Assembly (NCBI RefSeq): GCF_004210375.1
Contig: NC_134832.1
Location: 151,649,592-151,713,591, forward strand
Reading direction: 5' to 3'
Length of the DNA: 64,000 nt
Source of the DNA: Tachypleus tridentatus
Taxonomy: Eukaryota > Arthropoda > Merostomata > Xiphosura > Limulidae
The position numbers and the translations under genes were made by a program. Under the pieces are notes generated by a model, which worked only from the letters and a program-made list of their open reading frames with translations, had not been told where the DNA came from and did not search any database. Positions 8,681 through 46,106 of the stretch are shown here, piece after piece (positions within the stretch are counted from its first letter, which is position 1; every line of letters starts with the position of its first letter).

Positions 8681-10680
8681 TTAGTGGTAATAACCACCGT
8701 AATGAGGGTAAACGGGATAAGCCCAAGGACAGTAGACACCGTGAATTCCGTGTCCATACCCACCGCCATGATAACCTCCATACCCACCGCCAAGATAACC
8801 TCCATACCCACCGCCAAGATAATTTCCATACCCACCGCCAAGATAACTTCCATATCCACCGCCAAGAACACCTCTGTAACCTAAAAGTCCTCCATAATAC
8901 CCAGCCAAGCTTGTAGCAACAAGGGATAAGACAACACAGATGACAAGCTGAAAGAATATAATTCGTATTTAGAAACACAAGTGACTTTAACATTTGTTTG
9001 TTTGTGGTTAAGCACAAAGCAACATAAACAGTTGCCTATTCTCTTCACACCACGAGTATCAAAATCAATTTGCAAGAGTTTTAAGTCCACAAACGGTCCA
9101 ATATGCCACTAGGGAATTGATTTAATGTTACTAATGTAGGCTGTAGTTTCACAGATAAGATGTTGAATTGATGTTTAACGACTTATAAACTATTTAGTGC
9201 AACATTTTATTTACGTATCGTGTTTCCTTTTGTATGAAATGAGGCTAATAATCTTCACACCAGGTTAGGATGGTGTTCAGTTTAAAGTGAATTACTTACT
9301 GTTGTTATTTTTAATATCAGATATTCATGAAAAACAACCAAAGTTTTTATGATACTAACCATTCCTAATATTGAACTGGAGAGAAAACAGCTAAAGTACT
9401 ATATCTACTGCTGTTGGACTACTATCATCAAATATTAAAATTTGACTGTCACACTCATTACACATCCACTAATTTAAAGTACTAAATGTGATTTTATACT
9501 AGCGAGACACACGCCTGGTTTCTCTCATTCGTAATCTCTCCCAGCTAACCACTTCGTCACATTTGTTTTATACGAAGTATTATTAACAACTCAACCGTAA
9601 GTTACATTCTTGTATCTACGTATTATACTCTCTATGAATATTTGATTTTCTTTTCACTCGTGCACTCCTAAACTTTAAAAATTCAAACAAATGACTGGAG
9701 TGTGGCTTGTGGTCATGAACATGGGAAAAAAAGATTGAATGTTTTTTCAGGCAGTGCGTCAGAGTTGTCAGTACACTGGACTGTGGATCCTTGATACATG
9801 ATTCACGACCTGTTACCACTAAAAAATAATATATATATTTATAAACACTTTCTCAAATTAAGGTTGAGGATGTTTATAAAGATAGCCATGAAACCCGCCA
9901 TTTCATTTCAACATCTCACCGCTAGTACAGCGGTATGTCTCCGGATTTACAACGCTAGAATCAGGGGATCGATTCCCCTCGGTGGGCTGAGCAGATAACC
10001 TTATGTGGCTTTGCTATAAGAAAACCACACACACACTCATTTCAACATATCACGTGTTTACGGTGGTAGGTGTTAAACACTTCCCTCTAGTTTATCAAGT
10101 CCAATTAGGTACGGCTAGTGCAGAAAGCTTTTAATATTAAGATAACTTCTACATAATAGATTTTAAAAATTTTAAACAATTTTTATGGTTCACATGGTAA
10201 AGAAAATATTAAATTTTATGACTTCCGTATTTTTAAACCAAATTGGTCCTTATTTGTGTTGGTTTCCCAAACCACATCGGTAAATTGAGGGGCTATAAAA
10301 TGTGTTCAGAACAAAATATCATATTGTGTTACTTTGTTCTTACCAAAAAGATAAAAACACGATTTTTCTTCACTAACATTTTTAATTGAGTGAAATATTT
10401 AGATTTGACGTGGAATGCTGTTGTTGCTTAATTTTACTTTAGAGAATTGTTTTAATCCAATATTTATTTACAGATGAAAATTCATATCAACACAAGTTAT
10501 TTTGTGTAATCCGTATTAAGCCTAATTATACTTTCGTTTCAAAGAGAGTTAATTGAGTGAATATAAATCCTAAAATAAAATAATAGTCTGTTAGACTTAG
10601 TTAATGAATTGAATAAGTACATATATTTTAGTATATCTAGATAACTACTGTTATTAACATATACTCACAGTGAACTTCAT
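8681..10680 (-). CDS. Gly/Tyr-rich small secreted protein, gene 1 (two exons)
   Basis: Exon 1 is 10680..10669 (M-K-F-T, donor GTGAGT). Exon 2 is 8947..8681, after acceptor TTCTTTCAG, ending CAC-TAA. The phase-0 intron of about 1721 nt holds two SINEs. The spliced product is 92 residues. Residues 1 to about 19 are a signal peptide (MKFTLVICVVLSLVATSLA). Next come YYGGLLGYRG, five octapeptide-type repeats (GGGYGxYL; the last is GGGYGHG), then HGVYCPWAYPVY and GGYYH. There is one cysteine in the mature part. A TATA box lies about 80 nt before the ATG, and AATAAA lies at 8490..8485. A tiny first exon inside the signal peptide is typical of arthropod cuticle-protein genes. A structural cuticle role or a Gly-rich antimicrobial role are both possible. 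The gene model is strong; the function is inferred. Confidence 0.85.
8993..9114 (-). mobile_element. SINE-3 in the intron of gene 1
   Basis: Reverse complement of the SINE-3 pattern: ccctagtggc head, degraded promoter boxes, tail gctttgtgcttaaccacaaa with caaac repeats. It lies in the sense orientation of the gene. Copies at 34943-35064 and 41678-41799. Confidence 0.65.
9917..10038 (+). mobile_element. SINE-2 in the intron of gene 1
   Basis: cgctagtacagcggtatgtc, acaacgctagaatcagggga, tcgattcccctcggtgggct, then ggctttgctataagaaaacc and (AC)n. The head resembles a tRNA with A and B boxes. Copies at 35895-36012 and 42599-42719. Confidence 0.75.
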
Positions 10681-10757
10681 CTTTTTTAGCACTAACCAAA
10701 CAAACTCTCTCGTTTTCTCAAACAACTCGATAATACCTGCTTGGGTACAACAAACCT

Positions 10758-10766
10758 CCTTTTATA
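10758..10766 (-). promoter_or_regulatory. TATA box of gene 1
   Basis: TATAAAAGG on the minus strand, 78-86 nt upstream of the exon 1 ATG. That leaves room for a TSS near 10730-10735 and a 5' UTR of about 50 nt. The same box at the same spacing precedes genes 3 and 4. Confidence 0.8.
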
Positions 10767-11812
10767 CTATTCGCCGAGAACGTTCACAGGAAGTTCTTAA
10801 ACATATTTTTTGAGAGAAATTATTGATAGTTATCTAATGTATTTATTAATGAAAATAGTATACGAATACCTAGAGTCAGTTTTAAAGGCATTTTTATTGT
10901 TTACCTTATTTTGTTTTTCTCGTTTTCTTTCAAATATTCATAATTTATTTTTTTTAAGGTTTATTTTCAGTTTCCCGACATAACAAGATTTATAAACACT
11001 AACTAATGTTAACGTATTAAATATATTTGTATGTGGAAAAACAAAATAATCTAAGCAACAGCTGACTGGTAGTACAAGTTTTAACTGATAACAATTTTTA
11101 CAATCATGTCGTTCAACTCGAGCCCTGATATATCAGATCATATAATACTTATAGGTATTAAATATCACAGCTCTCTGATTGGTTTAAATTCTACCAATCA
11201 TTTGACACTTCCCATCTTCTCAGTTATAACAACAGAAATTTAACAAAAATCAGGGAATATATATTTTGTTTATTCAAAAAATTGCGCTTGAGTTTATTTA
11301 TTGAATCGTATGTAAGTGACATATATTGGTAGCCGTTTAAACTACACTATTATTTACGTAGGTTGTTCCTCTACACATTTAAATTGCTAGGAAAACTAGT
11401 TTGTGATGTTAAAGAAAGGATGTACTATTGATAATTTTATCTGGTTATTTTTATAGTTAGATTTCTCTTTACGTGTATTAACATAATATGTATATATAAA
11501 CATATTACATTATATATGTATACAATATGTAAATAAATCATTTAAACCTTAAAACAGTGAAATATCCATTAAATAACTATTCAGTGTTTGTTTTGTTGTA
11601 TCTGAAAGGATGTCTCGTGGTCTACTATGGCTGTACTCAGCACGAGTAAACATTAAACAATTGATCAGACAGCGATGTCGAAAAAACCCACTTGCAGAGA
11701 AATATATATGCAAAAACGGCTCGTTTGGGTTGAGAAAGTATTTTACGCAGAAGAAAGAACAACATTTCGACCTTCGACTATATATTCCTTGGGACTCAGC
11801 ACATGAAACAGG

Positions 11813-11842
11813 GAGCAGGACGGTGACCATGGAAGTTGGAAT

Positions 11843-11880
<38 letters not shown>

Positions 11881-11955
11881 CTAGCCCTGAAAATGGATGG
11901 CGCTTCCCCCGTAGCGGGTGCAAGGCCCATAGTTGCCGGTGCCGTCGGCGGAGGT
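11813..11955 (+). other. 28S rRNA-derived fragment 1
   Basis: gcaggacggtgaccatggaa, aatccgctaaggagtgtgta and aacaactcacctgccgaagc closely match the conserved core of eukaryotic 28S rRNA, upstream of the D7/D8 region. It is about 140 nt and forms the head of a retroelement, so it is not a functional rRNA gene. Confidence 0.85.
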
Positions 11956-11964
11956 CGCCTCTCT

Positions 11965-12027
11965 GGAGTCGGGTTGCTTGAGAGTGCAGCCCTAAGTGGG
12001 TGGTAAACTCCACCTAAGGCTAAATAC
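11965..12027 (+). other. 28S rRNA-derived fragment 2, from an earlier part of 28S
   Basis: ggagtcgggttgcttgagag and gtgggtggtaaactccacct, ending ggctaaatac: the 28S stretch upstream of D2. In real 28S rRNA it lies more than 1 kb before fragment 1; here it follows it, so the order is swapped. Confidence 0.85.
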
Positions 12028-12078
12028 GGCGTGGAGGGAAGACCTGAGCTAGCCACCGAGCAAGTCAGACGTGCCAAC

Positions 12079-13102
12079 ATGCTATTCAGAACGAAACGTT
12101 CATCCTCGCCAGTCAGGCCGTTAGTGCCGCCTGTAATCGTTGACGGCTTACCGCCGAACCTCACGCCGTACCAAGTCGCCACGTTGATCGCCCGAGCCAA
12201 GCCTGGGGCAACCATCGAACCGTCCAGGACCCGTATTTTACGCCGGGGAGGAATCCTCATCCAACCAGCTACTACTGCAGACCAAACCTATCTGTGCCAG
12301 CCATGGAACACTGAATTTAAAGTAAGTTGTTCCCCTACGAAAAGTCCAGTCAATCTTTATTCTGTATTCCTCAGGGGCGTCGACCCATCAATTCAACCAG
12401 AAGAAATTAGACAAACCATAGAACCCCAAATACAAGCCAAGGTATACGCAGTTCATCGAATTTATTCTAAGAACAGTAATCATCCCACACACTTCATGAA
12501 GATAGTGACAACATCGAAGTACAGTGCCGACTGTATTTTACGAGATGGCTGCTGTTATCATATATTTCATTTTAGAGCCGAACGCCCACATCGACGACCA
12601 CTCAAGAATGGTTCAAACCAAGCACCCAGATATCGCAAACAACCAACGGAAATCTTCCAACAAGAAAATACCAAAATACCGCCGAGTCCAGACCGTATTA
12701 GAAGAAACATGAAGACGGATTCAGACAACCCGACTCAGAAGAAGACAACACCCATTGTTAGCAACACGCCAAATTCCAGTAGTTCAAGAAAGAAAAAAGG
12801 ACAGTTCCTGCCAGACTTCAATCCTAGTTCCACAGAATTCAACAACCAGCCAGACTCAAACCATTACGAAGATAACCATCGACGCGACAACACAAACTGA
12901 AAAACAATCTACCTCCATGCAGAAAACTCAAACCAAAATCTCGAGAAGAAACAAAGCATCACAGACCAGCGAAGAAAAACTCACCGAAGAACAGCCAGTA
13001 GTTCCACCACCAAGACCACGTTTCTCAGTTGCACCAATGGGCTTCAAGTGTGGAAACAAGTTCATGATGAAGTTACCACCCGATCTACAAGACTGCAGCT
13101 AA
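12079..13102 (+). pseudogene. LINE ORF1-like protein (RRM-like), with one frame change
   Basis: Frame 1 is open from after a TAA at 12004; the first ATG is at 12079 and the frame runs to 12900. A second frame (12755-13102) continues the protein, so there is a frame change between about 12755 and 12900. N-terminus: basic, Pro/Ser-rich. Middle (about 12360-12590): VFLRGVDPSIQPEEIRQ ... VYAVHRIYSK ... PTHFMKIVTTSK, which looks like an RRM fold of the kind in ORF1 of I/Jockey-like LINEs. The second frame is rich in TQT/SQT motifs (TTQTEKQ, KASQTSEE), also seen in such ORF1s. No ORF2 (nuclease or reverse transcriptase) follows. GC content is above the surroundings. Confidence 0.6.
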
Positions 13103-13645
13103 CAGTTTCCACGTACACCATCAACGTAGTTCATCAGTTTTTTTTTTTTCTTTCTTTCCCAGCTACTTCCGGGCACGGTCTGGGTAGATTATTCGGCGCC
13201 CAGGCCGTGAAAGTGGGTTTTCTCGGGGCACTCCCGTTTCCCCCCACAGCAAAATCTCTGGCATCGGACCTGTAGGTCCCAGCCTCATTCTGAAAAGGGC
13301 CGTTTTCCCAGTCAAGGGTATCTAATCAATTACAGTAAATTTTAAAAACCAATTCGCCAGCCGCCAGTGTACTCCATCCTCGAGCCAAGGTCTGGCTCAC
13401 TTCACTTTCGCTGCTTTGGTCCAGTTCTCCCGTCCTTCCTCTCACTCACAAATACACCACTACTTTTTTTTTTGAAATGTTAAAAATAAAGTAAAATTTC
13501 CACGGATATCTTAAAACATTTCTCATGTAAGGGGACGAAGAGGAACAACAAAGTTCCTGAACACCCCAGTTGGGGAGAGAACTCTTCTGATTTCTCTCTC
13601 TCTAAACTGAACCCCTGCCACGTTAGTTTAGTTTAGTTTAGTTTA
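13103..13645 (+). other. 3' non-coding part of the ORF1-only element, with a (TTTAG)n tail
   Basis: A T-run at 13138-13150, then a GC-richer stretch (cgggcacggtctgggtagat, ggcgcccaggccgtgaaagt) and TTAGTTTAGTTTAGTTTAG at 13623-13645. The pentamer run may be the 3' tail of the LINE-derived part. No coding potential seen. Confidence 0.45.
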
Positions 13646-14539
13646 CATGAAACAAAACAAAAACTCAGCATACTAAGAAACCAAATAAACACAGCCATAA
13701 AACTATGCTCACCAGATAAAATTAACGATGAATTAAACAAAATAAAACAATACTTCATCAACACCAATAAGTTTCCTCCACAAACCGTAGAAAACATTAT
13801 ACGCACACACCCAGACAGAAAGTAAAATCAACCAACAAAAGTAAATATATCTCACGAATCAAAAAATCACGAAACCATATACTGCTGCGTACCATATATT
13901 CCCGACATCAGCGGACAAATAACCAACATTTGGCAAAAACTAGTAACAAAATATGACATTCCAGTTAATACCAAATTATTCAAAAACCAGGCACAAAACT
14001 GAGGTCTATACTATGTAAAAACTACACCGACAAACACCACACCAACATTATTTATAAAATACAATGTGATAACTGCCACGACTTCTATATTGGAGAAACA
14101 AGTAGAAAAATAGAAACCAGATTCAAAGAACATAAGTTACCTTCACACGTTTTCGAACACTGCAACGTAAATAAACACAACATAACCATAGAAAACACTC
14201 AAATACTAAATTAAGAAACAAACATAAACAAACGCAAAATTAAAGAAGCCTTACTTATACAACAACTTAAACCCACAACAAACCAATATAAAGGAACGTC
14301 TTTATACCTATATTAAATATAATAAAATAAATAATATAAAATTATATATTCAAACATCTAACACCGCCCTCTACATTCCGACACTCAGTTACACAACTCC
14401 TTCCAAACATGTGATCAGCTTCCGGTCAGTTACCTCTTTCTTTCTTTGTGAACCTGACGATGATCGAAGAAGGTCGAAACGTTATTCGCTCTTCTACGCA
14501 AAATATTTTCTCAACCCAAACGAGCCGTTTTTGCATATA
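13646..14539 (+). mobile_element. Penelope-like element, C-terminal GIY-YIG nuclease region and 3' end (broken)
   Basis: The translation shows the linker motif VPYIPDISGQITNIWQKL and the GIY-YIG nuclease hallmark IYKIQCDNC-HDFYIGETS, with RFKEH and an EALLIQQLKP tail, as in Penelope-like proteins. The reverse transcriptase part is missing. The 3' end has the acctgacgatgatcgaagaa / ggtcgaaacgtt motif found at other Penelope-like ends here. It is an inactive remnant with a few stops. Confidence 0.8.
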
Positions 14540-15871
14540 TAATTGATCAGACAGGTCCAGATGTCAGTAGGTCACTGGCCTTTACTAAATCGCCTATTTA
14601 GTTTATTACGTTCGTGTTGTTCAATAGATAACATTAGAAAATAGAAACTACAGAATTTTAAATACAGTTTATTTCTATAAGCACCCATAACTGTCAGTTC
14701 TTACACCTAGTGAATCAATTCGTATTCTAGGATACTTGTAGAATTGACGCTCTATGTGCAGATGTTTATGCTATTAATTATTAAACGCAGTATCCATACC
14801 TCATTTGGAAACATTAAGAAAAATGAACACTTTCTCAAAAGAGATTTTTCTGTGAAGTAGTACAGGAGAAACGTGTTTAGACAGTGCTGATATAAACTGT
14901 AATATTTTTATGTATTCAAAGTTATACCCTTTACTGAAAAAATAACACTTGTTTATCAACTCCGTTATAAGAACTGTATTTATAATTTACATCAATAAAG
15001 ATATAACTAAACCCTCACGTACAGTTCTAGTGAAAGTTATGTTATTCTTGTGAATAAAGTTCTTGTATTTAAAATTGTGTTCCTTGATAAGGAATGGTTG
15101 TTGTACACATGGTAAGTATTTTATAATTCTTAGACTCTTCGATACCCGAAGTATGGAATTATTTTATGAAATTATGTGATCAAATAAATAACGTCAAACT
15201 GTTTTATTATTTCAGTCACATACATAGTTACGTATATACAGAATACTCCCACTATTGTAAGTTGTACAAAACTAAATTTTATGACGTGGCTTTCATACGT
15301 TTAGGTTTCCTCCAATAAATCATAATATTTACAGAAATCTAATAACCGTTTATATTGAGGTTTGTTCCCATTAAATACTTGTTTTCTCAACCCTCGTGTT
15401 TAGTCTCGTGCTTATGGTTATCCAGTGTTACCCTGAACTACAATTTTTATTTCAAACAGCTGCTGGGAAAGAGAACAAAGCTGTTGATAGACCAGTTGTC
15501 TTTACAAACTGACCACAGTCCTCCTGATATATGTGTATGTGGACATTACCTTCCAAGATAATAGGTATTTTATTATAATAGGTATCTTATTAACAGCATA
15601 AGACTCTAGAAAGATCTTTATTTCATTCTATCTTGTTTTTCTTAATTTATTAACTTTTACTTAGAACACTATGTCATCCTTTTTTTGTTCTTTGTCAACC
15701 AACATTGTTGCTATACGAATGTTTTCATCTGAGAGAAATGTAACATATAAACCACTATGGTTCTCCTGTTGGCAGGTGTTTATCATGAATTTTATTCTGT
15801 TACAAACTCACACACAAATAACAGTCCCCGACTACCTATTGAAGACAACAAACAACAGTATACTGTACTTA

Positions 15872-15968
15872 GACCAGCCCTGGACTATACATTGAGCGAA
15901 ATGAGCACGTGCTTAGGGCACCAAGGGAAGGAGGGCACCACAGAGTTTTTCCCCCAGCTATCGTACCT
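15872..15968 (+). mobile_element. hAT-like transposon end (fragment)
   Basis: ccagccctggactatacatt, gcgaaatgagcacgtgctta, gggcaccaag: the style of a hAT terminal sequence (gccctag...gcttagggc). It begins exactly where module B copy b stops. No transposase is seen. Confidence 0.35.
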
Positions 15969-16690
15969 TTAACTCTTTCACTGCCACACTCAACTTTAGT
16001 CGATTTTTTTGTGATTGTCTTTATCAGCCGTGTTTGACTTTACTCTGCATTGTTAAAACGTTTTCTTTGGCTCGGTGAGTAACTAAAGTTTCGAAAAACT
16101 TCTAAACTTTGTTTCTGAAGTAAGAAGTCATTGATTTACGAAAGATTACTGTAAAGAGCAGTACAAAATGTTGATAAAACTTTAGGTAGAAGATGATCGC
16201 ATGTAATGATGTCTGACCTTGAAGATAAAATATTTTTTCTCAATCGTTCCTTCTGTTGTGGTTATTTATAAGAAATTACAGACAGTGGAACTGTTTTGTT
16301 TTACCTTTTGCTGCTTTATTCATTCACATCTACAGATAAATAAGAATATAATACATCAGAAACATAAGTCAAACGAAATGGTGACAGATGTATACAGAGA
16401 CGTGGCTAGTTTTATGATTTTTCAGCTTCTGTTTTGGTACGTTATATTTAGGTTATTTTCTTGTTTATTTTAATTTTGTTTGGGTTAGCATTGCATTATT
16501 CATGTAGGTTTTATAATATTTTTATAAGTGTGTTTCTCACTGAAGCTTTTCCGAGACGTAAATTTTTGCTTCAAACACCTTGCTGCAAAAAATACAATAA
16601 AAAACATCATTTGTGTGTGAGTACATGTTATGAAATTTATCAGACAAAGAAAAAATTTAGACAGGAATACTACCGTTCATATATTATATG
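15969..16690 (+). mobile_element. piggyBac-like remnant
   Basis: Starts ttaactctttcactgccac (TTAA target plus a piggyBac-style terminus). Near the end (about 16530-16680) a frame reads RRKFLLQTPCCKKYNKKHH, then LCVSTCYEIYQTKKKF, which resembles the C-terminal Cys-rich domain of piggyBac transposases (xLCxxxCFxxYHTxxxY). The catalytic domain is not recognisable and no right terminal repeat is found. It is internally deleted and old. Confidence 0.5.
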
Positions 16691-16754
16691 TAACCTATAA
16701 GAGTATTTGGGCATATATGTATTCCCTTGTGATTATGTAATGACATAAACAGAT

Positions 16755-17033
16755 CTAAACAAATATAAACAAACGCAAAGTCAAAGAAGCCTTACTTATA
16801 CAACAACTGAAACCAAAATTAAACCAATATAAAGGAACACCTTTTTACTTACACTAATTACTAACCGAACATCCAACTGCAACGTCCCCCACAATTCCGT
16901 ACCCGTTTATTCTCTCGCCCATAAGACGCGCCCATCAACGGTCAGTTGCAAACTCTCTCCTTGTTAACCTGAAGATGACCTAGAAGGTCGAAACGTTGTT
17001 TTTTGCTATATTAGTAAAAGTATTAATACCCAT
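16755..17033 (+). mobile_element. Penelope-like 3' end fragment
   Basis: Matches 14215-14300 (acaaacgcaaagtcaaagaa: protein tail KEALLIQQLKPKLNQYKGT) and goes on to gaagatgacc / gaaggtcgaaacgttgtttt. It is a short 5'-truncated copy and not functional. Confidence 0.7.
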
Positions 17034-17285
17034 GGGCTCGGCATGGCCAAGCGTATTAAGGCGTTCGACTCCCAGTCGCACCAAACATGCTCGCCCTTTC
17101 AGCCGTGGGGGCGTTATAATGTTACGGTCAATCCCACTATTTGTTGGTAAAAAGTAGCCCAAGATTTGGCGGTTGGTGGTGATGACTAGCTGCCTTCCCT
17201 CTAGTCTTACACTGCTAAATTATTGACGACTAGAGCAGATAGCCTTCGAGTAGCTTTGCGCGAAATTCAAACAAAACAAACAAAA
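17034..17285 (+). mobile_element. SINE-1 with an internal promoter deletion
   Basis: gggctcggcatggccaagcg head; then a jump to cgactcccagtcgcaccaaa, so the anticodon/B-box part is lost. The body and caaacaaaacaaac tail are intact. It follows directly on the Penelope-like end. Confidence 0.8.
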
Positions 17286-18470
17286 TTACCACCCATACCA
17301 GCCGTTTTGACATACATTTTTACTTCAAGTGGGTTTATCTTCGAATATGTGAACTATTTCCTTGAGTGTCAACCTCAGAATATAATTAATTCTAAAGTGT
17401 CCCATGTCAAAGTATGAAATCATGGTGTAATGTAATTACCATAGTTTTATTACCAAAGCCTCGTTACAAAGTGTAACTTAGTTTTAAATTCATTTGCGAA
17501 AAACTATTTTATTTTTCAATAGGTTAAGCTCTTAAATACCAGTATCAAAGTATAAAAAATTACTAAGGTAATACAACTTATGAATAATAGTAATGGTCAC
17601 GCCTTCTTACCGGCAGATGGAGCTATTCCTCCTTTGTAATTTTATTTAATATCTTAAAACAACTGAAAACGTTTGGACACAAATTGATTTAATTTCCAAC
17701 AGAGTTTTTACAGTTTGGAGTCAGAGCAAGTCCCAAAAAATATAATCTATGAACAGTAATAACTTCACAAAGATGTAATTGAAAAATTACGTCATTTCTT
17801 ATGTTAAGATTTTTATAATCACGTTATGTGACGCATGAAGTCTTCAATGGTAAACCTTCTTTGATAGATTTCTCAGACTCTGGAAATAAAGTAAGATATT
17901 AATGAATAAACGTATTCAGTTAGCTTAAAACATAATCTAAACAATATAATAACTACAGATATATCTATGAATATATTTGTGTTTTGTTTTCGTAAGAATA
18001 CACTGTTTAAAATAACAAGATATAATCACTTTGTTAAAAGATGAAAATTAACAGATGTTTTCAGTATTCGTTGTCTTCAAAAATATGATTCGTTCTATTA
18101 TAACTAATACAGTCTCTTACATCATATTAATAGATATCACATGATACCTCTAAAAGTCACTAATGAAATTATACCAGTATTCAACGATGTAGTTTAATTA
18201 TTTCAAAATATGTGTTTTTCTCTTATATTTTTTCTTGTAGGTTACCTTGTAAAGTGTAAAATTATATTCAAAGGAAGCATGATATATGTACAACGTATTT
18301 AAATATAAAGGTAGGAACGTTCTTTTCGTGGTAAGAGATTGTAATACAGAAATAATTTACTGAATACACAAAAAATGTTTCCGCCTGGCGGTGAATAAGT
18401 CAATAAAGTAATCATTATATAACAGTCTCACTAATGAGTTGAAAATAAACACAAAGCAATAATAATAATA
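17286..18470. other. No recognisable feature
   Basis: AT-rich sequence downstream of gene 2. I see no coding exon, repeat family or structured RNA here. Confidence 0.5.
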
Positions 18471-18498
18471 TTTATTAGTTCTGTTGCAATCCTACCGT

Positions 18499-19382
18499 TC
18501 AGTGGTAACCTCCACGATAAACGGGATAAGCCCAAGGGCAGTAAACACCATGGTATCCGTAACCACCATAACCTCCGAAGCCTAAGCCACCGTAACCACC
18601 ATAACCTCCGTAGCCTAAGCCACCGTAACCACCATAACCTCCGTAGCCCAATCCACCGTAACCACCATAACCTCCGTAGCCCAAACCTAATCCGTATCCC
18701 AGTCCTCCTCCATAAAGGTAACCAGCAAAACTAGTGGCGACGAGTGTAACGAAAACACAAATTCCAAGCTGAAATAACGATATGAAAATATAGGTTATCA
18801 TCATTTTTAACGTTTTATGACGTTAGGCTAGTGTTTACTGATAATGTCAGAAACAACCAGTAACTTTTATTACTTTGTTACGTCTTCCTTAGTAAAATCT
18901 GATGTCATCGAATGCTTTGAATATATTTTGTATATTATAACTGAGTTTGGTTATTTTATGATAATGAATTATTAGAATATTATAATAACGAATTATTAGA
19001 ATATTATAATAATGAATTATTAGAATATTATTATAAAGAATTATTAGTAAGTAATATGAAGCATAATAATTAATATCAGAAACTATATTACAGTGGATAT
19101 GTTTGATATCTCTGGTTAATTATTATAAATAAAACTATATTTTATCGTATATTAATGTAAAACATAATGTTTATCTTATTATCAGAAATAGACAGTTTTC
19201 TCAACATTATTTTCTTTCTAACCAGAACATGAATTTTAATACATTAAAAATATACATAGGTCTTTTATTAATAAGTAATTATGTGTCTGTTTTTAATAAA
19301 AAAGCTACGATTTTACTTTTAATTTATTTCTTTATTATATAAAATAAAAACGTATTAAAACTATACTTACAGTGAGTTTCAT
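18499..19382 (-). CDS. Gly/Tyr-rich small secreted protein, gene 2 (diverged paralogue)
   Basis: Exon 1 is 19382..19371 (M-K-L-T, donor GTAAGT). Exon 2 is 18768..18499, after acceptor TTATTTCAG. The intron is about 602 nt, phase 0, at the same codon position as in the other genes. The product is 93 residues. The signal peptide is MKLTLGICVFVTLVATSFA. A GYLYGGGLGYGLGLGYG lead is followed by three 11-residue repeats of the type GGYGGYGGLGY, then GYHGVYCPWAYPVYRGGYH. The C-terminal motif is nearly identical to that of genes 1, 3 and 4 while the repeat region differs wholly, so the C-terminus looks like the constrained part. An AATAAA lies at 18476..18471, soon after the stop. The flanks are not module B, so this is an older duplicate. 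Confidence 0.85.
18965..19050 (+). repeat. 24-bp AT-rich tandem repeat in the intron of gene 2
   Basis: gaattattagaatattataa + taac/taat, starting at 18965, 18989, 19013 and 19037; about 3.5 copies. Confidence 0.85.
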
Positions 19383-19464
19383 ATTGCACGTCTTAACAGC
19401 AGAACTTATAACTATCTTTTCTAAACCTAAAGCTATCGATTGGTTGACTGAAACACAGGAGCTC

Positions 19465-19476
19465 TCCTTTTATATA
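19465..19476 (-). promoter_or_regulatory. TATA box of gene 2
   Basis: TATATAAAAGGA on the minus strand, about 85 nt upstream of the exon 1 ATG. Spacing and flanking AGGAG resemble genes 1 and 3 although the rest of the promoter has diverged. Confidence 0.75.
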
Positions 19477-19482
19477 TCTATT

Positions 19483-20087
19483 CGTCGTTCTCCAAACCGG
19501 AAGTTGGTGTGGATTTCAGATGTGTTTCATTAACTTTGTTTGTTTTCACGGTCGTAGAAAGTTACCTGAAACCTCCATTATTTTTCATGCTCCAATTCCC
19601 TTTGTATTTAAGTAGATCACCTTATTTCTAATATTATACTCTCCTTTTTTAGGGTTTATTTTTGATTACGGAAGAAGGTATGTTTGAACCAAAAGAATAG
19701 GTTTGGTGTCAGGTAATATTTTCTGTGCAGCTCTGTAAAAACGGCTTGAACGTTAAAAAAGTAAGAAAACAAATATAGTGCATACATTTTAGAGCCAGAT
19801 ATTATAGATCACAACAAGTGTATTACTATTACCGGGTGTCTTAAATTGAAGAAATCTCTAACATGAAACTTTGAACAAAACTAAGTGTAAAATTACACAA
19901 AGTAATTCAGAAGCCAAAGTATGATAAGTTAGAATTATTATATCACTTTTCCAGCACAGTTGTTGTAACGAATATAACTTAAGGTTTGTTTTATACGTGC
20001 TGAAAGACACACTTGATTACTGTTTAAAACATATTGTTTTGTGTTTGATGGATGCAATATTTTAAACTTTCATAAATTACGTCCTCC
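19483..20087. other. Upstream flank of gene 2, no gene seen
   Basis: AT-rich; no recognised element between the promoter of gene 2 and the SINE-2 at 20088. Confidence 0.5.
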
Positions 20088-21197: not shown

Positions 21198-21250
21198 GAA
21201 TCAGCAGATAACCTGATATGGCTTTGCTATAAGAAAACACACACACACTC
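21198..21250 (+). mobile_element. SINE-2 3' tail fragment (module A copy 2)
   Basis: Duplicate of the fragment at 723-775, same break point. Confidence 0.65.
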
Positions 21251-32270: not shown

Positions 32271-34653
32271 TACGTAAATAGATGACATATTATTCCTCTA
32301 GATACCACTTATAATGAATCTTATAAATATATTTTACTCAAACTAATATCACACATGGGGATAAATTGTTATAGGCAAACATCTATAACATAAATTAAAA
32401 TAAGTTATATCATTTGAACCTTAAAACAGTGAAATATCCATTACATAACTGTTTAGTGTTTGTTTTGTTGTATCTGAAAGGATGTCTCGTGGTCTACTAT
32501 CGCTGTACTCAGCACGAGTAAACATTAAACAATTGATCGGAGAGATCCAGATGTCAGTAGGTCACTGGCCTTTACTAAGTCGCCTATTTAGTTTATTATG
32601 CTCGTGTTGTTCAATAGATAATTTTATAAAATAGAAACTACAGAATTTTAAATACAGTTTATTTCAATAAGCACCCATAACTGTCAGTTCTTACACCTAG
32701 TGAATCAATTCGTATTTAAGGATACTTGTAGAATTGACGCTCTATGTACAGATGTTTATGCTATTAATTATTAAACGCAGTGTCCATACCTCATTTGGAA
32801 ACATTAAGAAAAATGAACACTTTCTCAAAAGAGATTTTTCTGTGAAGTACTACAGGAGAAACGTGTTTAGACAGTGCTGATATAAACTGTAATATTTTTA
32901 TGTATTCAAAGTTGTACCCTTTACTGAAAAAATAACAGTGGTTTATCAACTCCGTTATAAGAACTGTATTTATAATTTACATCAATAAAGATATAACTAA
33001 ACCCTCACGTACAGTTCTAGTGAAGTTATGTTATTCTTGTGAATAAAGTGCTTGTATTTAAAATTGTGTTCCTTGATAAAGGAATGGTTGTTGTACACAT
33101 GGTAAGTATTTTATAATTCTTGAGTCTTCGATATCCGAAGTATGGAATTATTTTATAAAATTATGTGATCAAATAAATAACGTCAAACTGTTTTATTATT
33201 TCAGTCACATACATAGTTACGTATATACAGAATACTCCCACTATTGTAAGTTGTACAAAACTAAATTTTATGACGTGGCTTTCATACGTTTAGGTTTCCT
33301 CCAATAAATTAATATTTACAGAGATATACTGACCGTTTATATTGAAGTTTGTTCCCATTAAATACTTGTTTTCTCAACCCTCGTATTTAATCTCGTGCTT
33401 ATGGTTATACAGTGTTACCCTGAACTACAATTTCTATCTCAAACAGCTTCTGGGAAGCAAAACAAGGTTATTGATAGACCAGTTACCTTTACAAACTGAC
33501 TACAATCCTCCTGGTATATGTGTATGTGAACATTACCATCCAAAATAATAAGTATTATCTTATTAACAGCACAAAACACTAGAAAGAACTTTATTTCGTT
33601 CTATCTTGTTTTTCTTTGATGTGTGTTTGTGTTTCGGGGATTGTGTTAAGTTTGTTATGTAATCATCGTCTTCACCTTACCAGTGAACACTATGGTCATA
33701 ATTCTCTTGTGGGTGTTATTGTGGATACCGATAGTGTTCTAAATATGAGACTATCTGAATTTATTAACTTTTACTTAGAGCACCATGCCATCCTTTCTTT
33801 TGTTCTTTTGTCAACCAACAGTGTTGCTATACGAATGTTTTCATCTGAGAGAAATGTAACATATAAACCACTATGGTTCTCCTATTGGCAGATGTTTATC
33901 ATGAACTTTGTTCTGTTACAAACTCACACACAAAGTTCCCGACTACCCTTTAAGGACAATGAACAACAGTATACTGTACTCAGACGGATGTGTTCATTAT
34001 GCCTTAAGCGTATGTTAAGCCTAGGTTAAAAATCATAAAACAGTTTTCATTTCAAAACATTTATTTACTAGTGTAAATTTACAAAAGAAATGCATAGTAC
34101 AGTAATTCGAATTCACAACTTGATTATCTTGTTTGATGCGACGAACATGTAAACGGCTCTTTTCGTTGGCCACTTTCCTTACATCCTGGAAAGTAAAGAG
34201 TCTGTCAGTACAAAGTTGTTCGATTGAGTTATAACAGAACAAGAAACGACAGTCAATTTTATTATCACATGTCACTTCATTTAAGTATCGTTTTACTTCT
34301 TAAATCTCTAGATTAACAATCACACTTATTAAACAATTCTAAGTTCCCCCTTGTCAGTATTTATCTACATTAATAATAACAGTGATTAACCTGAACTTAT
34401 GTTATATCAAACCTACAGATACAAATGTTACTTACAAACTATTCTAGTGGTGACGGTTTATTAAAATATAAATATCGTGAAATAAAAATAAAAAAAGGCT
34501 TTGGTATTTTAACACATTGCTTTCACAACGTCAGTTTTGTTATTTATATCAAATAAATTCGTACAATATTTCAATATCATACATCCTCCTGTTGTAAGAC
34601 AAAGTAGATATAACCCTTATAATTATTAATTAAATATTTAATGAACTAACCAT

Positions 34654-36641
34654 TTAGTGGTAATAACCACCGTAATGAGGGTAAACGGGATAAGCCCAAG
34701 GACAGTAGACACCGTGAATTCCGTGTCCATACCCACCGCCAGGATAACCTCCATACCCACCGCCAAGATAATTTCCATACCCACCGCCAAGATAACTTCC
34801 ATATCCACCGCCAAGAACACCTCTATAACCTAAAAGTCCTCCATAATACCCAGCCAAGCTTGTAGCAACAAGGGATAAGACAACACAGATGACAAGCTGA
34901 AAGAATATAATTCGTATTTAGAAACACAAGTGACTTTAACATTTGTTTGTTTGTGGTTAAGCACAAAGCAACATAAACAGTTACCTATTCTCTTCACACC
35001 ACGAGTATCAAAATCAATTTGCAAGAGTTTTAAGTCCACAAACGGTCCAATATGCCACTAGGGAATTGATTTAATGTTACTAATGTAGGCTGTAGTTTCA
35101 CAGATAAGATGTTGAATTGATGTTTAACGACTTATAAACTATTTAGTGCAACATTTTATTTACGTATCGTGTTTCCTTTCGTATGAAATGAGGCTAATAA
35201 TCTTCACACCAGGTTAGGATGGTGTTCAGTTTAAAGTGAATTACTTACTGTTGTTATTTTTAATATCAGATATTCATGAAAAACTTCCAAGGTTTTTATG
35301 ATACTAACCATTCCTAATATTGAACTGGAGAGAAAACAGCTAAAGTACTATATCTACTGCTGTTGGACTACTATCATCAAATATTAAAATTTGACTGTCA
35401 CACTCATTACACATCCACTAATTTAAAGTACTAAATGTGATTTTATACTAGCGAGACACACGCCTGGTTTCTCTCATTCGTAATCTCTCCCCGCTAACCA
35501 CTTCGTCACATTTGTTTTTTATGAAGTATTATTAACAAATGAACCGTAGGTTACATTCTTGTATCTACGTATTATACTCTCTATGAATATTTGATTTTCT
35601 TTTCACTCGTGCACTCCTAAACTTTAAAAATTCAAACAAATGACTGGAGTGTGGCTTGTGGTCATGAACATGACTAGAGTGTGGCTTGTGGTCATGAACA
35701 TGGGAAAAAAAGATTGAATGTTCTTTCAGGCAGTGCGTCAGAGTTGTCAGTACACTGGACTGTGGATCCTTGATACATGATTCACGACCTGTTACCAATA
35801 AAAATAATATATATATTTATAAACACTTTCTCAAATTAAGGTTGAGGATGTTTATAAAGATAGCCATGAAACCCGCCATTTTATTTCAACATTCCCACGC
35901 TAGTACAGCGGTATGTCTCCGGATTTACAACGCTAAAATCAGGGGTTCGATTCCCCTCGGTGGGCTGAGCAGATAGCCCTATGTGGCTTTGCTCCAAGAA
36001 AAACACACACACTCATTTCAACAGATCACGTGTTTACGGTGGCAGGTGTTAAACACTTCCCTCTAGTTTATCAAGTCCAATTAGGTAGTGCAGAAAGCTT
36101 TTAATATTAAGATAACTTCAACATAATAAATTTTAAACAATTTTTATGGTTCACATGGTAAAGAAAATATTAAATGTTATGACTTCCGTATTTTTAAACC
36201 AAATTGGTCCTTATTTGTGTTGGTTTTCCAAACCACAACGGTAAATTGAGGGGCTATAAAATGTGTTCAGAACAAAATATCATATTGTGTTACTTTGTTC
36301 TTACCAAAAAGATAAAAACACGATTTTTCTTCACTAACATTTTTAATTGAGTGAAATATTTAGATTTGACGTGGAATGCTGTTGTTGCTTAATTTTACTT
36401 TAGAGAATTGTTTTAATCCAATATTTATTTACAGATGAAAAGTCATATCAACACAAGTTATTTTGTGTAATCCGTATTAAGCCTAATTATACTTTCGTTT
36501 CAAAGAGAGTTAATTGAATGAATCTAAATCCTAAAATAAAATAATAGTCTGTTACACTTAGTTAATGAATTGAATAAGTACATATATTTTAGTATATCTA
36601 GATAACTACTGTTATTAACATATACTTACAGTGAACTTCAT
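34654..36641 (-). CDS. Gly/Tyr-rich small secreted protein, gene 3 (two exons)
   Basis: Exon 1 is 36641..36630 (M-K-F-T, donor GTAAGT). Exon 2 is 34896..34654. The intron is about 1733 nt, with the same two SINEs as gene 1. The product is 84 residues: signal peptide, YYGGLLGYRG, four octapeptide-type repeats, then IHGVYCPWAYPVY and GGYYH. It is one octapeptide (24 bp) shorter than gene 1 and has P where gene 1 has L or H before the last repeat. The exon 2 reading matches gene 4 residue for residue. AATAAA lies at 34462..34457. The gene sits in a tandem module B copy. Function as for gene 1, not proven. Confidence 0.85.
34943..35064 (-). mobile_element. SINE-3 in the intron of gene 3
   Basis: Orthologous to 8993-9114 within module B. 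Confidence 0.65.
35895..36012 (+). mobile_element. SINE-2 in the intron of gene 3
   Basis: Orthologous to 9917-10038. The B box reads ggttcgattcccc here, closer to the family form than in copy a. Confidence 0.75.
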
Positions 36642-36717
36642 CTTTTTAGCACTAACCAAACAAACTCTCTCGTTTTCTCAAACAACTCGATAATACCTGC
36701 TTGGGTACAACAAACCT

Positions 36718-36726
36718 CCTTTTATA
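36718..36726 (-). promoter_or_regulatory. TATA box of gene 3
   Basis: TATAAAAGG, 77-85 nt upstream of the ATG. The surrounding 5' flank is nearly the same as in gene 1. Confidence 0.8.
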
Positions 36727-39700
36727 CTATTCGCCGAGAACGTTCACAGGAAGTTCTTAAACATATTTTTTGAGAGAAATTATTGATAGTTATCTAATGT
36801 ATTTATTAATGAAAATAGTATACGAATACCTAGAGTCAGTTTTAAAGGCATTTTTATTGTTTACCTTATTTTGTTTTTCTCGTTTTCTTTCAAATATTCA
36901 TAATTTATTTTTTAAGGTTTATTTTCAGTTCCCCGATATAACAAGATTTACAAACACTAACTAATGTTAACGTATTAAATATATTTGTATGTGGAAAAAC
37001 AAAATAATCTAAGCAACAGCTGACTGGTAGTACAAGTTTTAACTGATAACAATTTTTACAATCATGTCGTTCAACTCGAGCCCTGATATATCAGATCATA
37101 TAATACTTATAGGTATTAAATATCACAGCTCTCTGATTGGTTTAAATTCTACCAATCATTTGACACTTCCAATCTTCTCAGTTATAACAACAGAAATTTA
37201 ACAAAAATCAAAGAATATATATTTTGTTCATTCAAAAATTGCGCTTGAATTTATTTATTGAATCGTACGTAAGTGACATATATTGGTAGCCGTTTAAACT
37301 ACACTATTATTTACGTAGGTTGTTCCTCTACACATTTAAATTGCTAGGAAGACTAGTTTGTGATGTTAAAGAAAGGATGTACTGTTGATAATTTTATCTG
37401 GTTATTTTAATAGTTTCATTTCTCTTTATGTGTATTAACATAATACGTATACATAAACATATTACATTATATATGTAAACAACTACATAAAAGGACTCGT
37501 CTATTTCTGATTTGAGCAATGTTCGTGTGCACGTTTATGTGTTAGATGTGTTCAGTCTTATGGTGTACAATGAATGTATAACTTGATATGTCAGATCTTT
37601 ACGAAATAAATATATGATCAAATTTGTTACCAGTCTCATTCTAGTAAATAACAAAAAAATTATTGAAGATTTTTTAATATCTTATAAGAGAAGGGTCTCT
37701 GTGTCTAGTCTGATAAACTAAAGGGAAGGCAACAAAACTCGCCGCCAACTCCAGGCATACTTTTCTGTGAGAAATGGAAATATGTGACCAACTCTATAAA
37801 AGAGCCCCTAACTGCAGACCATTTTGGTAAGTAACGGATAGCGAACCACGAATCATCCCATTTCAAGACCATAACCGTTTATCACTCAGTCACGTCCGTC
37901 TTGCGATATTAAATACATTGTTACGAAAGTTTTAAATCACTCGTATCATTATTGGTATTTGTTCTCCTATGTATATCATCATATGTTGATCAAAGACGTT
38001 ACACCAAGCATTAGAAAATAAAACATTTCATGGCTATATTTGAGAGAAGCTACTAAACTTATTTTAGTAATTCTATAATTTTTAGTTAGTATGAATTATT
38101 ATTTGTTGTTTGTGTTTAGTTTGTAAAACAACTAAGTTCAGGCTTATCATCAGTCTTTGGATTAGGGTTACGTAAGCCTAGACGACAGTAAAACAGAGAG
38201 AAGTATTCAGTTTTTCTAATGTATATACTTTTTTATACGAGGTTATGGATTTTACATTATGCTCTGTCCTGCAATCTATGAAATATATACTCTATATGCC
38301 TCATATATATCATGAAGTATGAATGACTCAACAAATGTCTCCATCTTGGGTAAAGGAAAGATTTCATCTAAGGTTCATAAGTTGAGTTTTGGTTAGGTTC
38401 TAATCTATAAGTTTCAAAATCAATGACACAAAGTGAAAAATATAATTTTCTAAAACTGAATAATAATCGGTGCTTTTTAAACCTGAAAGTAAGACAACCT
38501 TTATATTACCACCAATTAAACATTTATATTAACATAACCTTCTTTAGATTGTACTTATTATCCTGTAAATATAAGCACATTTTGTAAAACCTAAAATAAT
38601 TCATATATTGATATCATATTTATTGTAATAAAAACTGGACAAAAACGTTACGAACCCAACACCGCTCCCCACTGGAACTATGATTAGTTTGGAGACTTCT
38701 AACTTTCAAAACATGGTTTCAGTTTTCAACATTCCAGTTGAGCAGAACAAACAAAGAATTTTACTCTTCAAAGCTATTTTGAAAACGGGTATTTCTCTAT
38801 GATACAGATATCAATCAAATCATTATTCTTCTGTTGCTGGTAAAATGTTGTATAAAAGATAAATGATAATTAAAACAATGATGGTCAAACAGAGTAACAT
38901 TGGAAGAGATAATGATTTAAAACTCCAAAATCGAGGGTTTCATCACCTCTAGTGGATAAAGATCAAACTGGTTAAGATATATACGTAAATAGATGACATA
39001 TTATTCCTCTAGATACCACTTATAACGAATCTTATAAATATATTTTACTCAAACTAATATCACACATGGGGATAAATTGTTATAGGCAAACATCTATAAC
39101 ATAAATTAAAATAAGTTATATCTAACTCGTTTATAGTCTCCAATCATTTAAACCTTAAAACAGTGAAATATCCATTACATAACTGTTTAGTGTTTGTTTT
39201 GTTGTATCTGAAAGGATGTCTCGTGGTCTACTATCGCTGTACTCAGCACGAGTAAACATTAAACAATTGATCGGAGAGATCCAGATGTCAGTAGGTCACT
39301 GGCCTTTACTAAGTCGCCTATTTAGTTTATTATGCTCGTGTTGTTCAATAGATAACATTAGAAAATAGAAACTACAGAATTTTAAATATAATTTATTTCT
39401 ATAAGCACCCATAACTGTCAGTTGTTACACCTAGTGAATCAATTCGTATTTTAGGATACTTGTAGAATTGACGACCTATGTGCAGATGTTTATGCTATTA
39501 ATTATTAAACGCAGTATCCATACCTCATTTAGAAACATTAAGAAAAATGAACACTTTCTCAAAAGAGATTTTTCTGTGAAGTACTACAGGAGAAACGTGT
39601 TTAGACAGTGCTGATATAAACTGTAATATTTTTATGTATTCAAAGTTGTACCCTTTACTGAAAAAATAACAGTGGTTTATCAACTCCGTTATAAGAACTG

Positions 39701-41388
39701 TATTTATAATTTACATCAATAAAGATATAACTAAACCCTCACGTACAGTTCTAGTGAAGTTATGTTATTCTTGTGAATAAAGTGCTTGTATTTAAAATTG
39801 TGTTCCTTGATAAAGGAATGGTTGTTGTACACATGGTAAGTATTTTATAATTCTTGGAGTCTTCGATACCCGAAGTATGGAATTATTTTATGAAATTATG
39901 TGATCAAATAAATAACGTCAAACTGTTTTATTATTTCAGTCACATACATAGTTACGTATATACAGAATACTCCCACTATTGTAAGTTGTACAAAACTAAA
40001 TTTTATGACGTGGCTTTTATACGTTTAGGTTTCCTCCAATAAATTAATATTTACAGAGATATACTGACCGTTTATATTGAGGTTTGTTCCCATTAAATAC
40101 TTGTTTTCTCAACCCTCGTATTTAATCTCGTGCTTATGGTTATCCAGTGTTACCCTGAACTACAATTTCTATCTCAAACAGCTTCTGGGAAGCAAAACAA
40201 GGTTATTGATAGACCAGTTATCTTTACAAACTGACTACAATTCTCCTGGAATATGAGTATGTGAACATTACCTTCCAAAATAATAGGTATTATCTTATTA
40301 ACAGCACAAAACACTAGAAAGAACTTTATTTCGTTCTATCTTGTTTTTCTTTGATGTGTGTTTGTGTTTCGGGGATTGTGTTAAGTTTGTTATGTAATCA
40401 TCGTCTTCACCTTACCAGTGAACATTATGGTCATAATTCTCTTGTGGGTGTTATTGTGGATACCGATAGTGTTCTAAATATGAGACTATCTGAATTTATT
40501 AACTTTTACTTGGAGCACCATGCCATCCTTTCTTTTGTTCTTTTGTCAACCAACAGTGTTGCTATACGAATGTTTTCATCTGAGAGAAATGTAACATATA
40601 AACCACTATGGTTCTCCTGTTGGCAGATGTTTATCATGAACTTTGTTCTGTTACAAACTCACACACAAAAGTTCCCGACTACCCTTTAAGGACAATGAAC
40701 AACAGTATAGTGTACTCAGACGGATGTGTTCATTATGCCTTAAGCATATGTTAAGCCTCGGTTAAAAATCATAAAACAGTTTTCATTTCAAAACATTTAT
40801 TTACTAGTGTAAATTTACAAAAGAAATGCATAGTACAGTAATTCGAATTCACAACTTGATTATCTTGTTTGATGCGACGAACATGTAAACGGCTCTTTTC
40901 GTTGGCCACTTTCCTTACATCCTGGAAAGTAAAGAGTCTGTCAGTACAAAGTTGTTCGATTGAGTTATAACAGAACAAGAAACGACAGTCAATTTTATTA
41001 TCACATGTCACTTCATTTAAGTATCGTTTTAATTCTTAGATCTCTAGATTAACAATCACACTTATTAAACAATTCTAAGTTCCCCCTTGTCAGTATTTAT
41101 CTACATTAATAATAACAGTGATTAACCTGAACTTATCTTATATCAAACCTACAGATACAAATGTTACTTACAAACTATTCTAGTGGTGACGGTTTATTAA
41201 AATATAAATATCGTGAAATAAAAAATAAAAAGGCTTTGGTATTTTAACACATTGCTTTCACAACGTCAGTTTTGTTATTTATATCAAATAAATTCGTACA
41301 ATATTTCAATATCATACATCCTCCTGTTGTAAGACAAAGTAGATATAACCCTTATAATTATTAATTAAATATTTAATGAACTAACCAT

Positions 41389-43347
41389 TTAGTGGTAATA
41401 ACCACCGTAATGAGGGTAAACGGGATAAGCCCAAGGACAGTAGACACCGTGAATTCCGTGTCCATACCCACCGCCAGGATAACCTCCATACCCACCGCCA
41501 AGATAATTTCCATACCCACCGCCAAGATAACTTCCATATCCACCGCCAAGAACACCTCTATAACCTAAAAGTCCTCCATAATACCCAGCCAAGCTTGTAG
41601 CAACAAGGGATAAGACAACACAGATGACAAGCTGAAAGAATATAATTCGTGTTTAGAAACACAAGTGACTTTAACATTTGTTTGTTTGTGGTTAAGCACA
41701 AAGCAACATAAACAGTTACCTATTCTCTTCACACCACGAGTATCAAAATCAATTTGCAAGAGTTTTAAGTCCACAAACGGTCCAATATGCCACTAGGGAA
41801 TTGATTTAATGTTACTAATGTAGGCTGTAGTTTCACAGATAAGATGTTGAATTGATGTTTAACGACTTATAAACTATTTAGTGCAACATTTTATTTACGT
41901 ATCGTGTTTCCTTTCGTATGAAATAAGGCTAATAATCTTCACACCAGGTTAGGATGGTGTTCAGTTTAAAGTGAATTACTTACTGTTGTTATTTTTAATA
42001 TCAGATATTCATGGAAAACTTCCAAGGTTTTTATGATACTAACCATTCCTAATATTGAACTGGAGAGAAAACAGCTAAAGTACTATATCTACTGCTGTTG
42101 GACTACTATCATCAAATATTAAAATGTGACTGTCATACTCATTACACATCCACTAATTTAAAGTACTAAATGTGATTTTATACTAGCGAGACACACGCCT
42201 GGTTTCTCTCATTCGTAATCTCTCCCCGCTAACCACTTCGTCACATTTGTTTTATATGAAGTATTATTAACAAATGAACCGTAGGTTACATTCTTGTATC
42301 TACGTATCATACTCTCTATGAATATTTGATTTTCTTTTCACTCGTGCACTCCTAAACTTTAAAAATTCAAACAAATGACTGGAGTGTGGCTTGTGGTCAT
42401 AAACATGGGAAAAAAAGATTGAATGTTCTTTCAGGCAGTGCGTCAGAGTTGTCAGTACACTGGACTGTGGATCCTTGATACATGATTCACGACCTGTTAC
42501 CACTAAAAAATAATATATATATTTATAAACACTTTCTCAAATTAAGGTTGAGGATGTTTATAAAGATAGCCATGAAACCCGCCATTTTATTTCAACATTC
42601 CCACGCTAGTACAGCGGTATGTCTCCGGATTTACAACGCTAAAATCAGGGATTCGATTCCCCTCGGTGGGCTGAGCAGATAGCCCTATGTGGCTTTGCTA
42701 TAAGAAAAACACACACACTCGTTTCAACATATCACGTGTTTACGGTGGCAGGTGTTAAACACTTCCCTCTAGTTTATCAAGTCCAATTAGGTAGTGCAGA
42801 AAGCTTTTAATATTAAGATAACTCCTACATAATAAATTTTAAACAATTTTTATGGTTCACATGGTAAAGAAAATATTAAATTTTATGACTTCCGTATTTT
42901 TAAACCAACTTGGTCCTTATTTGTGTTGGTTTTCCAAACCACAACGGTAAATTGAGGGGCTATAAAATGTGTTCAGAACAAAATATCATGTTGTGTTACT
43001 TTGTTCTTACCAAAAAGATATAAACACGATTTTTCTTCACTAACATTTTTAATTGAGTGAAATATTTAGATTTGACGTGGAATGCTGTTGTTGCTTAATT
43101 TTACTTTAGAGAATTGTTTTAATCCAATATTTATTTACAGATAAAAAGTCATATCAACACAAGTTATTTTGTGTAATCCGAATTAAGCCTAATTATACTT
43201 TCGTTTCAAAGAGAGTTAATTGAATGAATCTAAATCCTAAAATAAAATAATAGTCTGTTAGACTTAGTTAATGAATTGAATAAGTACATATATTTTAGTA
43301 TATCTAGATAACTACTGTTATTAACATATACTCACAGTGAACTTCAT
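41389..43347 (-). CDS. Gly/Tyr-rich small secreted protein, gene 4 (two exons)
   Basis: Exon 1 is 43347..43336 (M-K-F-T, donor GTGAGT). Exon 2 is 41631..41389. The intron is about 1704 nt. The 84-residue product is identical to that of gene 3. AATAAA lies at 41198..41193. The upstream flank has lost about 230 bp relative to gene 3: sequence matching 36830-37060 is missing at 43532, roughly 100 bp beyond the TATA box. Distal control elements could therefore differ while the core promoter is kept. Confidence 0.85.
41678..41799 (-). mobile_element. SINE-3 in the intron of gene 4
   Basis: Orthologous to 8993-9114 within module B. Confidence 0.65.
42599..42719 (+). mobile_element. SINE-2 in the intron of gene 4
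   Basis: Orthologous to 9917-10038; the B box has one change (ggattcgattcccc). Confidence 0.75.
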
Positions 43348-46099: not shown

Positions 46100-46106
46100 T
46101 ATATTT

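Follow-up and report, generated by a model that had tools for sequence, protein, structure and literature searches.

Background

Arthropod cuticle genes of the R&R family (CPR genes) are the closest described counterparts of a gene family that we report here from the horseshoe crab Tachypleus tridentatus, where it lies on contig C8 (NC_134832.1) and was followed up from a stretch of 64,000 nucleotides (C8:151649592-151713591; hereafter the window) in a searched genome of 2.17 Gb and 205 contigs. Nineteen Coagulin matches, together with two coagulogen exons that are 43/43 and 47/47 identical to PDB entry 1aoc, a T. tridentatus structure, mark this genome as that of a horseshoe crab, very probably T. 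tridentatus. R&R cuticle genes of Anopheles have a conventional TATA box in 126 of 153 cases and a first exon whose median and modal length is 12 nt, and 86% of the intron-bearing genes are interrupted within the signal peptide (PMC2259329). Near-identical members stand in tandem arrays, and a difference in gene number between strains has been reported, with rearrangement not excluded (PMC2259329). For the cuticle arrays of Drosophila, repeats within coding regions have been linked to gene conversion, and gene number in the 65A array varies among strains (PMC2793513).

Two further groups of proteins invite comparison. In GGY-type glycine-rich proteins (GRPs) of ticks and insect cuticle, glycine exceeds 20% of the residues and GGY repeats occur (PMC11772090). 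Horseshoe crab cuticular proteins, including caraxin, have been described by Iijima (2005) and Matsuda (2007); caraxin is epidermal (PMC2956697), and those studied are reported to be cross-linked by transglutaminase (PMC2956697, PMC5395146). The cross-link routes listed in PMC5395146 run through Tyr by peroxidase, through His or Lys by quinones, and through Gln-Lys bonds by transglutaminase.

Within the window lies a portion of a tandem family of small, secreted, Gly/Tyr-rich proteins which, in our judgement, are rather likely to be structural matrix proteins outside the R&R class, most likely cuticular. The locus records recent gene birth and death, and the array seems still to be gaining and losing copies.

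Results

The window contains four intact two-exon genes, all on the minus strand, which confirms a preliminary description made from the sequence alone. Their parts are as follows.

10669-10680, minus strand: gene 1 exon 1, encoding MKFT, with a GTGAGT donor directly after it
8681-8947, minus strand: gene 1 exon 2; subfamily I, 92-residue protein including the signal peptide
10758-10766, minus strand: gene 1 TATA box, with a TTCCTGT box at 10786-10792
19371-19382, minus strand: gene 2 exon 1, encoding MKLT
18499-18768, minus strand: gene 2 exon 2; subfamily II, 93-residue protein
19466-19474, minus strand: gene 2 TATA box, with a TTCCGGT box at 19496-19502
36630-36641, minus strand: gene 3 exon 1, encoding MKFT; TATA box at 36718-36726
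34654-34896, minus strand: gene 3 exon 2; subfamily I, 84-residue protein
43336-43347, minus strand: gene 4 exon 1, encoding MKFT; TATA box at 43424-43432
41389-41631, minus strand: gene 4 exon 2; 84-residue protein identical to that of gene 3

The introns of genes 1 to 4 measure 1721, 602, 1733 and 1704 nt, all with GT-AG ends and in phase 0, and TATAAAAG starts 85-92 nt 5' of the ATG in each gene; the TATA box and phase-0 intron previously claimed for every copy are therefore present in all four. The first exon had been called identical throughout, which holds for its 12-nt length in all four genes and fails for its letters in gene 2 (MKLT rather than MKFT). Likewise, HGVYCPWAYPVY stands near the C-terminus of all four proteins, whereas the C-terminus described as common to them differs in the last residues of gene 2. 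Genes 3 and 4 do encode a single protein: their coding DNA is identical, with 0 of 243 differences in exon 2 and 0 of 12 in exon 1. Outside the coding sequence, 24 of 1703 intron sites and 10 of 899 downstream sites differ, and they are therefore distinct copies and not a single sequence assembled twice.

The family extends well beyond these genes. A DNA pattern for CPWAYP gave 15 exact matches in the 2.17 Gb and none for the reversed control, and all 15 fall inside 1.6 Mb of contig C8 (150.16-151.69 Mb). A divergent member without the CPWAYP tail, at 151.616 Mb, brings the total to 16 open reading frames (ORFs) in four subfamilies, a count of members found, from which more distant ones might have escaped.

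Subfamily I (type I): genes 1, 3 and 4 in the window and four members at C8:150.16-150.18 Mb
Subfamily II (type II): gene 2 and three members to its left
Subfamily III: three members at C8:151.556-151.602 Mb and one at 150.818 Mb
Subfamily IV: one member, at C8:151.616 Mb

After five ORFs on probable second-haplotype stretches (see below) are set aside, 11 ORFs remain in about 140 kb, and the bulk of this array lies outside the window. Weak genome matches off C8 were put down to chance resemblance in low-complexity sequence and discarded: three rows at E 0.6-1.0, two at E 0.067 and 9.5, and three at E 0.93-0.98, the last five all with stops.

All 16 ORFs have a 12-nt, phase-0 first exon and a TATA box, the exon 1 of subfamily IV having been chosen by eye. 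This exon encodes four residues of the signal peptide. The whole family thus shares with the CPR genes a short first exon within the signal peptide, a phase-0 intron and a TATA box, as well as the occurrence of near-identical copies in tandem.

With the signal-peptide cleavage site placed by eye, on which the following figures rest, the mature chains are 57-95 residues long and consist of 39-54% Gly and 22-27% Tyr with one Cys in 16 of 16. Every chain thereby exceeds the 20% glycine that defines GRPs. Lys and Gln, the residues required for transglutaminase isopeptide bonds, are absent from all 16 mature chains, and net charge (K+R-D-E) runs from 0 to +2. The conserved aromatic tail HGVYCPWAYPVY ends 15 of the 16 chains, and the repeat region is built from a tandem repeat of 24 or 33 nt. 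AlphaFold2, given an alignment of only eight rows, returned a mean predicted local distance difference test (pLDDT) score of 46.9 and a single helix at residues 2-23; a low score from so few rows is weak evidence of disorder.

Seven proteins covering all four subfamilies (genes 1, 2, 3/4, II_C4, III_C1, III_C3 and IV) were scanned against Pfam with E values up to 10, three against NCBIfam and one against PDB sequences, and none matched a family. The sole Pfam row was a sub-threshold hit of gene 1 to Prion_octapep (E 0.057, 13.9 bits against a cut-off of 32), a match of composition, and the sole PDB row stood at E 2.8. None of the seven proteins showed a domain or motif of the remaining cuticle families for which Pfam has models, such as Tweedle and the GYR and YLP motifs. 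The literature matches listed included no paper that seemed to concern this gene family, the string GVYCPW had no match in the literature searched, the serrulin paper names horseshoe crabs in its reference list alone, and no part of the window reached a gathering threshold in Rfam. The preliminary placement of these genes as a short, secreted, Gly/Tyr-rich multigene family belonging to no named family accordingly stands as far as Pfam, NCBIfam and PDB sequences are concerned. We regard it as a new gene family, but one familiar in kind, and apparently lineage-specific.

Selection was compared among subfamilies I, II and III, using the ratio of non-synonymous to synonymous substitution rates (dN/dS). 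At the aligned protein ends this ratio is 0.05 for I against II (synonymous rate, dS, 1.9), 0.13 for I against III and 0.10 for II against III, with Fisher p values, from rounded counts, of 4e-9, 8e-6 and 2e-5, respectively. Purifying selection is strong at both ends of the protein between these subfamilies. Whole-protein values between subfamilies are 0.12-0.19, for which the alignment of the repeats is uncertain. Gene 2 belongs to an old, separate subfamily, because its synonymous sites are near saturation against type I (dS of about 2). The earlier view of a young array consequently fits the type-I copies only.

Genes 1, 3 and 4 are each carried on a module of about 6.7 kb, and the modules of genes 3 and 4 lie head-to-tail, as had been noticed before. 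The modules, together with the remnants found among them, are listed below.

30651-36827: type-I module with gene 3, 96.5% identical to 37338-43533
37338-43533: type-I module with gene 4, head-to-tail with the module of gene 3
6274-11525: type-I module with gene 1, 95.5% identical to 32272-37482 and without the 5.5 kb of about 26777-32271
16853-26776: 10-kb type-II module with gene 2, whose sister copy is window -3657 to 6275
46101-46330, plus strand: degenerate exon 2 (a relic, the fifth copy), 77% identical to gene 1 across its first 73 nt
44950-46097, plus strand: Tc1-like element with a DDE_3 domain and terminal inverted repeats, directly upstream of the relic exon
14541-15643: leftover flank of a type-I module, without a gene and 93.6% identical to 6556-7643

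Duplication is not confined to the three genes first credited with it. Gene 2 is also duplicated, on the 10-kb unit (window 1-6275 is 97.0% identical to 20499-26776), and its sister gene is located just outside the window on the sister copy. Two composite units result: unit 1 (window -3657 to 11525) is collinear with unit 2 (16853-37482) at 96.4% and 95.5% identity, and 5.5 kb is found only in unit 2. Each of the two 10-kb copies contains a 55-bp tandem repeat, at 2037-2356 and 22533-22852. A 1.16-kb repeated flank at 7300-8462 was considered as a transposon or dispersed element and rejected; it has at least nine near-complete places and at least four partial rows, counts that are lower bounds since the search tool skips very common words, and because all copies are at the locus or on a probable haplotig it is taken as part of the module.

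Gene loss has accompanied duplication. The relic has lost its Gly/Tyr repeats and C-terminal tail, its reading frame closes after about 54 codons, and a plus-strand search of window 42001-47000 showed no 12-nt exon to go with it. The sequence 3' of the relic (46362-47518) carries no gene and matches the flanks of type-I modules at 92-94% identity. Expansion by segmental duplication had been proposed for this locus, and the duplication is plain; simple expansion is not, since genes have also been lost, and the relic together with the gene-less flanks at 14541-15643 and 46362-47518 therefore makes birth-and-death the better label. Copies would arise by duplication of units of 6-20 kb and by unequal exchange among such units, and would die through decay.

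The four type-I members at C8:150.16-150.18 Mb raise a separate question. They lie on C8:150154994-150195228, which is exactly one piece between two gaps of 500 N and, in inverted orientation, can be aligned from one end to the other with window 49212-21959 (identity 98.9-99.5%). All 55 of the 500-bp chunks compared were matched, with best placements at 96.8-100%, and the flank outside the array at 26.7-30.7 kb is among the matched sequence; in the 4.5 and 14.3 kb examined beyond the two gaps, no piece longer than 300 bp is shared with this locus. The piece has four tandem type-I genes against two in the window, and the extra part is a second two-gene unit (bases 9248-22929 against 22232-35984, counted from 150150001; 98.6%). 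Another piece, at C8:150.80-150.83 Mb, is 98.7-99.1% identical to 151.545-151.565 Mb. This part of the assembly seems not to have been purged, given that at C8:151623658-151631215 a further 3.5 kb is repeated at 99.7% on either side of a 500-N gap, which is typical of overlapping, unmerged contig ends. An additional subfamily-II first exon at 151.627 Mb adjoins this gap and is probably an assembly artefact.

Two readings of these pieces were weighed. The array at 150.155-150.195 Mb could be a true inverted segmental duplication, in which case the haploid genome would hold at least seven type-I genes, and its placement on the same contig, in inverted orientation and with its own number of modules, speaks for this. 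That it fills exactly one gap-bounded piece, aligns from end to end including sequence outside the array, shares next to nothing with the locus past its gaps and lies near another sign of unpurged assembly makes such a duplication unlikely. The pieces at 150.155-150.195 and 150.80-150.83 Mb, with their five ORFs, are probably unpurged second-haplotype contigs whose genes would be alleles, and the sequenced animal probably has unequal numbers of type-I copies on its two haplotypes (two against four).

Other features of the contig and the assembly were noted alongside. About 30 kb of satellite DNA stands amid the gene family at C8:151564645-151594578, with copy spacing in multiples of about 46 bp, and a similar array with spacing of about 92 bp occurs at C8:150.800-150.803 Mb on the probable haplotig piece. 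Clusters of R&R cuticle genes at C7:166-172 Mb and C14:15.4-15.9 Mb have several identical scores across the two contigs and may reflect either a recent duplication or a further haplotype left unpurged.

At 16-29 nt upstream of the TATA box, all 17 promoters examined have the pattern TTCC[GT]GT, for which about 0.008 occurrences per 60 nt would be expected; the set includes the subfamily-II copy beside the assembly gap. As the copies are related and the pattern was picked after the sequences had been viewed, it weighs as no more than four subfamilies, and the box suggests a shared regulation. A Grainyhead-type site, TCCGGTT, within 200 nt upstream, was found in two of five promoters of subfamily II, four of four of III, the one of IV and none of the seven of I. 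The wider box, chosen after the fact, could equally be ETS-like, and no factor is therefore named.

Retroelement remnants neighbor the genes. In window 11549-14542, a 297-residue frame (12007-12900) matches nothing in Pfam, a GIY-YIG fragment (13969-14211) falls slightly below the Pfam cut-off, and we take these remnants to be Penelope-like. A related piece (52270-52921; 74% identity) lies on the opposite strand. On the minus strand at 51314-53530 there are two reverse-transcriptase fragments, one matching RVT_1 at E 5.9e-21 and the other, at E 0.0011, below the cut-off.

Discussion

We favor a role as non-R&R structural matrix proteins because the Gly/Tyr composition is combined with a cuticle-gene-like architecture. 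Each gene would act as a compact, TATA-driven unit, and the epidermis would secrete the mature chains, whose putatively disordered Gly/Tyr repeats and aromatic tail would pack into cuticle or another extracellular matrix. Fixation would come through tyrosine oxidation and quinone adducts on His, to which the single Cys perhaps adds a disulfide. The transglutaminase route is implausible for chains without Lys and Gln. In this the family differs from horseshoe crab cuticular proteins and caraxin as published, with which it shares the animal group. The GGY-type GRPs are alike in glycine content and GGY repeats, but nothing beyond composition defines those proteins as a class, and the HGVYCPWAYPVY tail falls under no named family searched. 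Mammalian high-glycine-tyrosine keratin-associated proteins, too, are short, Gly/Tyr-rich structural proteins from a clustered multigene family; they are not known to be secreted or to be related to the horseshoe crab family, and the likeness is one of analogy only.

Several observations weigh against a cuticular matrix. The seven proteins scanned against Pfam have no PF00379 (R&R/Chitin_bind_4) or other chitin-binding domain, in which they depart from the CPR genes, and no PF00379 gene was found on C8 at 150-152 Mb among the 150 of 299 candidates scored. Within subfamilies, constraint is weak or has too few changes behind it: I_W1 and I_W3 are separated by one synonymous and one non-synonymous change, four subfamily-II pairs have whole-protein dN/dS of 0.11-0.44, and for II_W2 against II_C4 three changes put the ratio at the ends at 0.62. 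The layout with a short first exon is not unique to cuticle genes (PMC2259329). Glycine-rich sequences of the GGY type are also known from silks and tick cement, and glycine-rich antimicrobial peptides exist (PMC11772090).

Among the alternatives, the one that survives best is a secretion that serves as a glue, resembles silk or comes from a gland, such as a dermal-gland secretion or egg coat, with the same chemistry in another tissue and no part in load-bearing cuticle. The low charge of the chains and their lack of a predicted fold would suit such a product, as would the GGY motifs of cement-linked tick GRPs and spider silks (PMC11772090). The gene architecture fits cuticle genes, even if a gland is still compatible with it. 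The chains are also short for a fibre protein, and we hold a glue or gland product to be doubtful.

We give less weight still to glycine-rich antimicrobial or haemolymph peptides resembling the acanthoscurrin, ctenidin and serrulin of arachnids, which we consider an improbable function. Expanding arrays are usual for immunity genes. The tick GGY family has been suggested to be antimicrobial, a suggestion that its source leaves untested (PMC11772090). The mature chains, by contrast, are scarcely charged and devoid of lysine, no pro-peptide is evident by eye, and dN/dS well below 1 between subfamilies I-III gives no sign of positive selection. Their Tyr content is, moreover, far above that of a typical cationic peptide. 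Antimicrobial and glue roles are both less likely than a cuticular matrix.

That the ORFs are functionless low-complexity frames carried along by their repeats is hardly credible, for although a tandem 24- or 33-nt unit does underlie the repeat region, both ends are under strong purifying selection in subfamilies I-III, promoter and splice sites are kept in 16 ORFs of four subfamilies, and the decayed relic at 46.1 kb, with repeats and tail gone, makes a visible contrast.

Conclusions

The window contains part of a family of small secreted proteins for which a place in the cuticular matrix is the favored role. More tentatively, this matrix family may be specific to horseshoe crabs and carry a live copy-number polymorphism, of two against four tandem type-I genes, generated when a 13-kb unit carrying two genes is exchanged unequally; its assembly may rely purely on Tyr, His and Cys, HGVYCPWAYPVY serving as a new tail for assembly or for docking to chitin. 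Horseshoe crabs have the name of "living fossils", but an apparent structural protein family of theirs has undergone recent gene birth and death. If the haplotype reading is true, a single animal carries unequal gene numbers for one matrix protein. Chains that lack Lys and Gln would, for their part, split two cross-linking routes within the same cuticle, one through transglutaminase and the other through tyrosine and quinones.

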